Positions 34,569 through 34,797 of a stretch of 35,690 bases of DNA are shown piece after piece; the stretch's first letter is position 1, and the number at the start of each line of letters is the position of its first letter. The translations under genes and the position numbers were made by a program. This DNA comes from Thioalkalivibrio sp. GTDB lineage: Bacteria > Pseudomonadota > Gammaproteobacteria > Ectothiorhodospirales > Ectothiorhodospiraceae. A model generated the notes under the pieces. It was given only the letters and a program-made list of their open reading frames with translations. It was not told where the DNA came from and ran no database searches. The stretch lies in contig SKJG01000136.1 of NCBI GenBank assembly GCA_007116035.1, positions 1 to 35,690 of the forward strand, written 5' to 3'.

Positions 34569-34573
34569 GTGGC

Positions 34574-34701
34574 GACGTTCATGGTGCCGGTTCAACACCA
34601 GCGCGCACCATGGACGTTTCCCTCGGCCCGGTAACCGTCTGCTGGTTTCATGGGTGTGGGCGGTCCCGCCTTGCGACGAATACGCCAGCAGGTTGTAACC
34701 G
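34574..34701 (+). promoter_or_regulatory. Structured leader between rplT and pheS
   Basis: Two long hairpins occur in tandem. Hairpin 1 pairs 34574-34587 with 34605-34618: 14 bp including two G·U pairs and a 17-nt loop. Hairpin 2 pairs 34629-34645 with 34685-34701: 15 of 17 positions including two G·U pairs, enclosing about 39 nt. Hairpin 2 ends two nucleotides before the stem of the intrinsic terminator at 34704. No Phe-rich leader peptide is evident, so a classical pheM-type attenuator is not supported. Confidence 0.6.
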
Positions 34702-34703
34702 AA

Positions 34704-34733
34704 GGGAGGGGTGCCGAGCCCCCTCCCTTTTTT
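34704..34733 (+). terminator. Intrinsic terminator/attenuator upstream of pheS
   Basis: An 8-bp stem (GGGAGGGG at 34704-34711 with CCCCTCCC at 34720-34727), an 8-nt loop and six T residues. It stands 64 nt before the pheS start. It either ends the thrS-infC-rpmI-rplT transcript or works with the preceding hairpins as a pheST attenuator. Confidence 0.88.
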
Positions 34734-34797
34734 GTTGGAACAGAAATCCGTTCGCCGCCAGCCCCGGCGCTGCCGGCGAACCGTGGAGAAATCCGAC

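Follow-up and report, generated by a model that had tools for sequence, protein, structure and literature searches.

T-box and L20-leader RNAs of Firmicutes place a structured leader and a terminator ahead of synthetase or L20-operon genes, an arrangement also seen in the DNA analysed here. The rplT-pheS gap of Escherichia coli (450 nt) contains a first terminator, then pheM, then a second terminator; the first of these, AGAGGGAGCTAGTCTCCCTCTTTTCGTTT in strain K-12, begins approximately 10 nt after the rplT stop codon, 5' of pheM. Attenuation of the pheM type is known in this bacterium (PMC5371410), and the literature describes classical attenuators of pheST in gamma-proteobacteria (PMC1262725) and Phe-dependent attenuation of pheST-ihfA (PMC8942017). 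RNase III was reported to cut the pheM attenuator, and it was suggested that read-through provides the main transcript in the conditions used (PMC5371410). The native pheST promoter of E. coli was placed 368 nt upstream of pheS, which locates it after the first terminator, and an alternate promoter was proposed about 45 bp before pheS (PMC4082710).

The window, by which we mean the whole stretch of Thioalkalivibrio sp. DNA that was analysed (35,690 nt), has an rplT-pheS gap of 229 nt (34569-34797), running exactly from the rplT stop codon (34566-34568) to the GTG of pheS (34798). The features of this region are as follows.

34209 to 34568, + strand: rplT (ribosomal protein L20), the last gene 5' of the gap, from its open reading frame and its homologues in the family.
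34574 to 34618, + strand: hairpin 1, 14 pairs, with arms at 34574-34587 and 34605-34618, from folding and comparison with genome G036.
34629 to 34701, + strand: hairpin 2, 15 pairs over 17 positions, with arms at 34629-34645 and 34685-34701, from folding and comparison with G036.
34702 to 34733, + strand: intrinsic terminator, the conserved element, with a purine-only 5' arm, GGGAGGGG, and a C/T-rich 3' arm.
34750 to 34781, + strand: hairpin 3, 3' of the terminator, 11 pairs, from folding and comparison with G036.
34783 to 34788, + strand: GTGGAG, the likely ribosome-binding site of pheS, from alignment.
34798 to 35690, + strand: pheS (PheRS alpha subunit), GTG start, extending past the end of the window, from its open reading frame.

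The terminator displays the GC-rich stem (arms 34704-34711 and 34720-34727) followed by a T-run (34728-34733) that defines intrinsic terminators. Folding of 34566-34740 gave -81.3 kcal/mol, compared with -66.7 +/- 4.5 in dinucleotide shuffles (z -3.2, none of 200 shuffles being as stable), although the excess was modest once the terminator was left out, with z at only -1.9. A first-pass annotation of this DNA had described two long hairpins and then an intrinsic terminator, and folding confirms them at 34574-34733. It had the hairpins fill the whole 136 nt before the terminator; they span some 118 nt of the approximately 133 nt that precede it. Hairpin 2 encloses a small inner hairpin (34659-34670), and hairpin 3 had been missed. 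The GTGGAG motif is retained in eight of the nine aligned leaders of the genus, L004 having GGGAG instead.

The element that persists among relatives is the terminator, while the hairpins turn over fast. We matched rplT in 41 of the 47 genomes searched in the family, which includes Thioalkalivibrio and Ectothiorhodospira as judged from named records carrying identical sequences. A fixed scoring rule found a terminator in 40 of the 41 family gaps, and the 41st, in L013, has one with a mismatch when inspected by eye. In those 40 gaps, as in E. coli, it is the first terminator after the rplT stop codon, a trait of rplT-operon terminators of the E. coli type. Among all 101 distinct gaps, drawn from 108 usable loci, 78 have such an element, compared with a mean of 0.3 in ten rounds of shuffling. 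An even sample of the class yielded it in 27 of 46 adjacent rplT-pheS pairs, the other 19 gaps being devoid of such a terminator. The distance from the rplT stop codon to the terminator has a median of 49 nt and a maximum of 136 nt, so that the 134 nt of the window are near the upper end. By the crude measure of mean identity over seven stem bases, terminators after rplT reach 0.61-0.69, against 0.39-0.46 after rplQ and 0.33-0.60 after rpsI. We considered sequence likeness as a trait unique to the rplT terminator and dismissed it, as the terminators of rplQ and rpsI also show partial similarity from one genome to another.

A sharper contrast is provided by the purine-only 5' arm, which was scored on the first seven bases after any leading run of A. 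The arm is GGGAGGG in the window. It consists of purines only in 56 of the 78 distinct gaps with a terminator, in 17 of 27 terminators from the class sample and in the rplT-proximal terminator of E. coli. Control terminators from up to 30 genomes had this feature in a single case out of 77 (0/21 after rplQ, 1/20 after rpsI, 0/18 after rpsT and 0/18 after rpmG). Pattern searches with the two main stem types gave matches in 4 of 6 genomes and in 10 of 30 genomes, and every match lies beside rplT. Searches of an open-licence library, mostly at the level of titles and abstracts, turned up nothing on purine-only terminator arms or on an rplT-pheS terminator in this family. Phe-rich open reading frames in other taxa were also considered and set aside, as most of them arise incidentally from the C/T-rich arm of the terminator. 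Short reading frames in the gaps of L131, L169, L160 and L162 give FPF-type peptides from this arm and the T-run, and we judge them to be a by-product of the purine/pyrimidine stem.

Upstream of the terminator the situation is very different. Among the relatives compared, the two hairpins of the window are common only to G036 (RplT 99% identical). The window (G000) and G036 have seven differences in the 134 nt 5' of the terminator, and changes at 33 of 221 fourfold sites (8/64 in rplT and 25/157 in pheS). The leader has thus changed more slowly than the fourfold sites in this pair (Fisher p 0.005), which suggests that the hairpins may be under constraint between these two genomes. In G036, hairpin 1 has one top pair broken and two pairs turned into G-U, the arms of hairpin 2 are unchanged, and hairpin 3 differs at four pairs, all of them still paired and one changed on both sides. 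The comparison thus reveals one compensatory change in hairpin 3 and none in hairpins 1 and 2, with one pair broken; it involves two sequences only, and its overall score was reached by 269 of 500 shuffles. In the next relatives the leader sequence is unrelated, and blastn matches mainly cover the terminator and the nucleotides that precede pheS. L005 and L006 have 136 and 43 nt, respectively, 5' of the terminator, although their PheS proteins are 97% identical, and L018 has 111 nt where L021 has 28 nt. When nine leaders of the genus were aligned no conserved core emerged, and their RNAalifold consensus is reduced to the terminator plus two short helices.

Structure as such nevertheless seems to be favoured upstream of the terminator while the sequence is free to change. 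The upstream part of 68 gaps has a median z of -1.9, with 31 values below -2, whereas length-matched segments from the end of the rplT coding sequence give a median of -0.84, with 11 below -2. Such a combination is more in keeping with a spacer or insulator than with a fold that binds a ligand. Covariation analysis in relatives, which the first-pass annotation had proposed, did reveal compensatory changes, whose absence the annotation had said would refute it, in a sister clade. Compensatory changes are absent from hairpins 1 and 2 of the window, as described above for G036. In this Thioalkalivibrio clade (ten distinct sequences), the hairpin next to the terminator keeps 98.2% of cells paired, and both partners have changed at 3 of its 11 pairs; none of 500 shuffles reaches its nine doubly changed cells, but 38 of 500 reach the count of such pairs. 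A post-terminator hairpin in eight Thioalkalivibrio sequences has two of nine pairs changed on both sides, which is not clearly beyond chance (81 of 500 shuffles).

Several other observations were made on these hairpins. Comparison of L005:1861-2103 with L006:1348-1497 reveals that some 73 nt of leader, which in L005 are largely self-complementary, are missing from L006, a clean gain or loss of a hairpin. Six Thioalkalivibrio loci (L025, L026, L028, L029, L030 and L032) have a hairpin of approximately 20 pairs between the terminator and pheS (L025:1962-2009), which is not found in other members of the clade and has no second copy as a hairpin in G040. We examined whether the hairpins might be mobile palindromes and rejected the idea: neither the arm of hairpin 1 nor the long hairpin present in some Thioalkalivibrio leaders recurs in hairpin form at other places of the genomes that were searched, and the whole leader of the window, used as a query against its own genome, matches one place only.

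How, then, might pheST be expressed? Classical attenuation of the pheM type through an overlooked Phe leader peptide is contradicted by the sequence of the window and has next to no chance of being correct, even though it operates in E. coli. The script that identifies the peptides MVSEGAFFVLFPS or MVSQGAFFVLFPS in three Aeromonas loci, which served as a positive control, found no Phe-rich leader peptide in the window, and most of its other matches read their Phe codons from the C/T-rich 3' arm and T-run of the terminator itself, where steering is impossible. The short open reading frame that follows rplT and ends 5' of the terminator encodes 17-21 residues with one or two Phe and is not Phe-rich, in line with the first-pass annotation, which had pointed out the lack of such a peptide and the difference from the pheM attenuator. 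A leader reading frame of 17 codons (34581-34634) was discarded, as both of its codon differences from G036 are nonsynonymous and give no sign of selection on a peptide. The same annotation had proposed that the leader is an unrecognised RNA sensing tRNA-Phe, L20 or another signal. Hairpins 1 and 2 would then switch the terminator as an attenuator independent of a leader peptide. This sensor interpretation has not stood up to comparison with relatives and is unlikely, although two strong hairpins right before a terminator, ahead of an aminoacyl-tRNA synthetase gene, and their slow change between the window and G036 speak for it. When the 3' arm of the terminator is withheld, its 5' arm does pair upstream at a mean probability of 0.65. 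Nevertheless, in the window this alternative falls some 13 kcal/mol short of the terminator in stability, and it does no better than in shuffled sequences (fraction 0.54). Of 26 leaders tested for an antiterminator that competes with the terminator, 24 show no excess over shuffles and two are at or below 0.05. The loss or replacement of hairpins in close relatives and the absence of a conserved core in the genus also argue against a sensor. Rfam covariance models gave no match to the window at the gathering score, and neither T-box nor L20-leader is among the five chance-level matches (E up to 5); this null result is weak evidence, as the pheM-like leaders of two Aeromonas loci likewise go unmatched in Rfam.

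A promoter of its own for pheST, with the terminator merely ending the rplT mRNA, is a more serious contender that we nevertheless find doubtful. It would agree with the E. coli promoter, which is also 3' of the rplT terminator, and there is free space after the terminator, 64-69 nt in the window and 108-115 nt in L025, L026, L028, L029 and L030. However, no sigma-70-like site was detected in 33400-35690 by a scan that may miss promoters of GC-rich genomes, and among hexamer pairs in the gap and the final 250 nt of rplT the best score 8 of 12 and do not recur in G036. A separate pheS promoter downstream of the terminator had been named in the first-pass annotation as the finding that would contradict it; nothing promoter-like appeared there in the window. 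Furthermore, 16 of 40 family gaps and 12 of 27 gaps of the class sample leave less than 36 nt between the end of the terminator stem and the start of pheS. This hardly accommodates a complete promoter and a ribosome-binding site, so that transcription of pheS must there proceed through the terminator. We therefore consider it probable that the element is an old terminator of the rplT operon with read-through into pheST, and that the lineage-specific hairpins are padding. For the organism of the window itself, we infer both read-through as the source of pheST mRNA and a function of the hairpins. Its terminator looks strong (stem of -20 kcal/mol, six T), which agrees poorly with mere leakage into an essential gene, and an unrecognised promoter could lie in the nucleotides that follow it.

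According to the read-through model, the element would end the thrS-infC-rpmI-rplT transcription unit. By position and stem style it corresponds to the terminator immediately 3' of rplT in E. coli, of which it would be the orthologue, and not to the pheM attenuator. As the family has no pheM block between the terminator and pheS, pheST would most likely be transcribed by incomplete termination, which would hold PheRS below the level of the ribosomal proteins. Hairpins 1 and 2 would represent a lineage-specific structured spacer in an untranslated stretch, kept as hairpins and not as sequence, whose probable roles would be to keep Rho and nucleases off and to insulate the terminator. If leakage through the rplT terminator does mainly feed pheST in the family, it would offer a simple way of setting synthetase levels other than by pheM attenuation. 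Our analysis also separates two easily confused things, regulator-like hairpins that change fast and a truly shared terminator that changes slowly.

The purine-only arm, kept class-wide here but not at four other ribosomal-protein genes, is a specific peculiarity that lends itself to testing in E. coli. One guess is that this Shine-Dalgarno-like arm is read by ribosomes. As a long shot, it is tempting to speculate that Gammaproteobacteria conserve the rplT-pheS terminator, with its purine-only arm, as a control point that works without a leader peptide. Some trans-acting factor bound to the G/A-rich arm, for instance a ribosomal protein of the same operon or the 30S subunit by way of its anti-Shine-Dalgarno sequence, might hold the arm open and let the polymerase pass into pheST, thereby tying the supply of PheRS to that of ribosomes.

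Two observations concern neighbouring genes. An in-frame ATT (33368), situated eight codons ahead of the listed ATG (33392) and with GGAGAATAAGG upstream, may be the start of infC (window positions 33368-33394); an ATT start of infC is the autoregulated start of IF3 in E. coli. The infC-rpmI gap (33917-33944) contains a GC-rich hairpin, ACCGGCGGGT/ACCCGCCGGT, and then CTTTCATAA. In E. coli, the L20 translational operator is located in the infC-rpmI gap.

Compared with known systems, the window most resembles the rplT-proximal terminator of E. coli (rplT-pheM gap, NC_000913), with which it shares the place after rplT, a purine-only 5' arm, a C/T-only 3' arm and a T-rich tail with GTT. The E. 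coli terminator is, however, followed by the pheST promoter, pheM and the second terminator, whereas the window has one terminator, much further from the rplT stop codon and preceded by two extra hairpins, with pheS soon after. The pheM attenuator of pheST-ihfA is likewise an intrinsic terminator 5' of pheS, but the run of Phe codons and the alternative fold described for it (PMC5371410) are both absent from the window, and its terminator arm, AAAGCCTCCC, is non-purine, unlike that of the window. As for the T-box and L20-leader RNAs of Firmicutes, no Rfam match at the gathering score connects the window with them, and the closest counterpart of the conserved element remains the terminator that directly follows rplT in E. 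coli.
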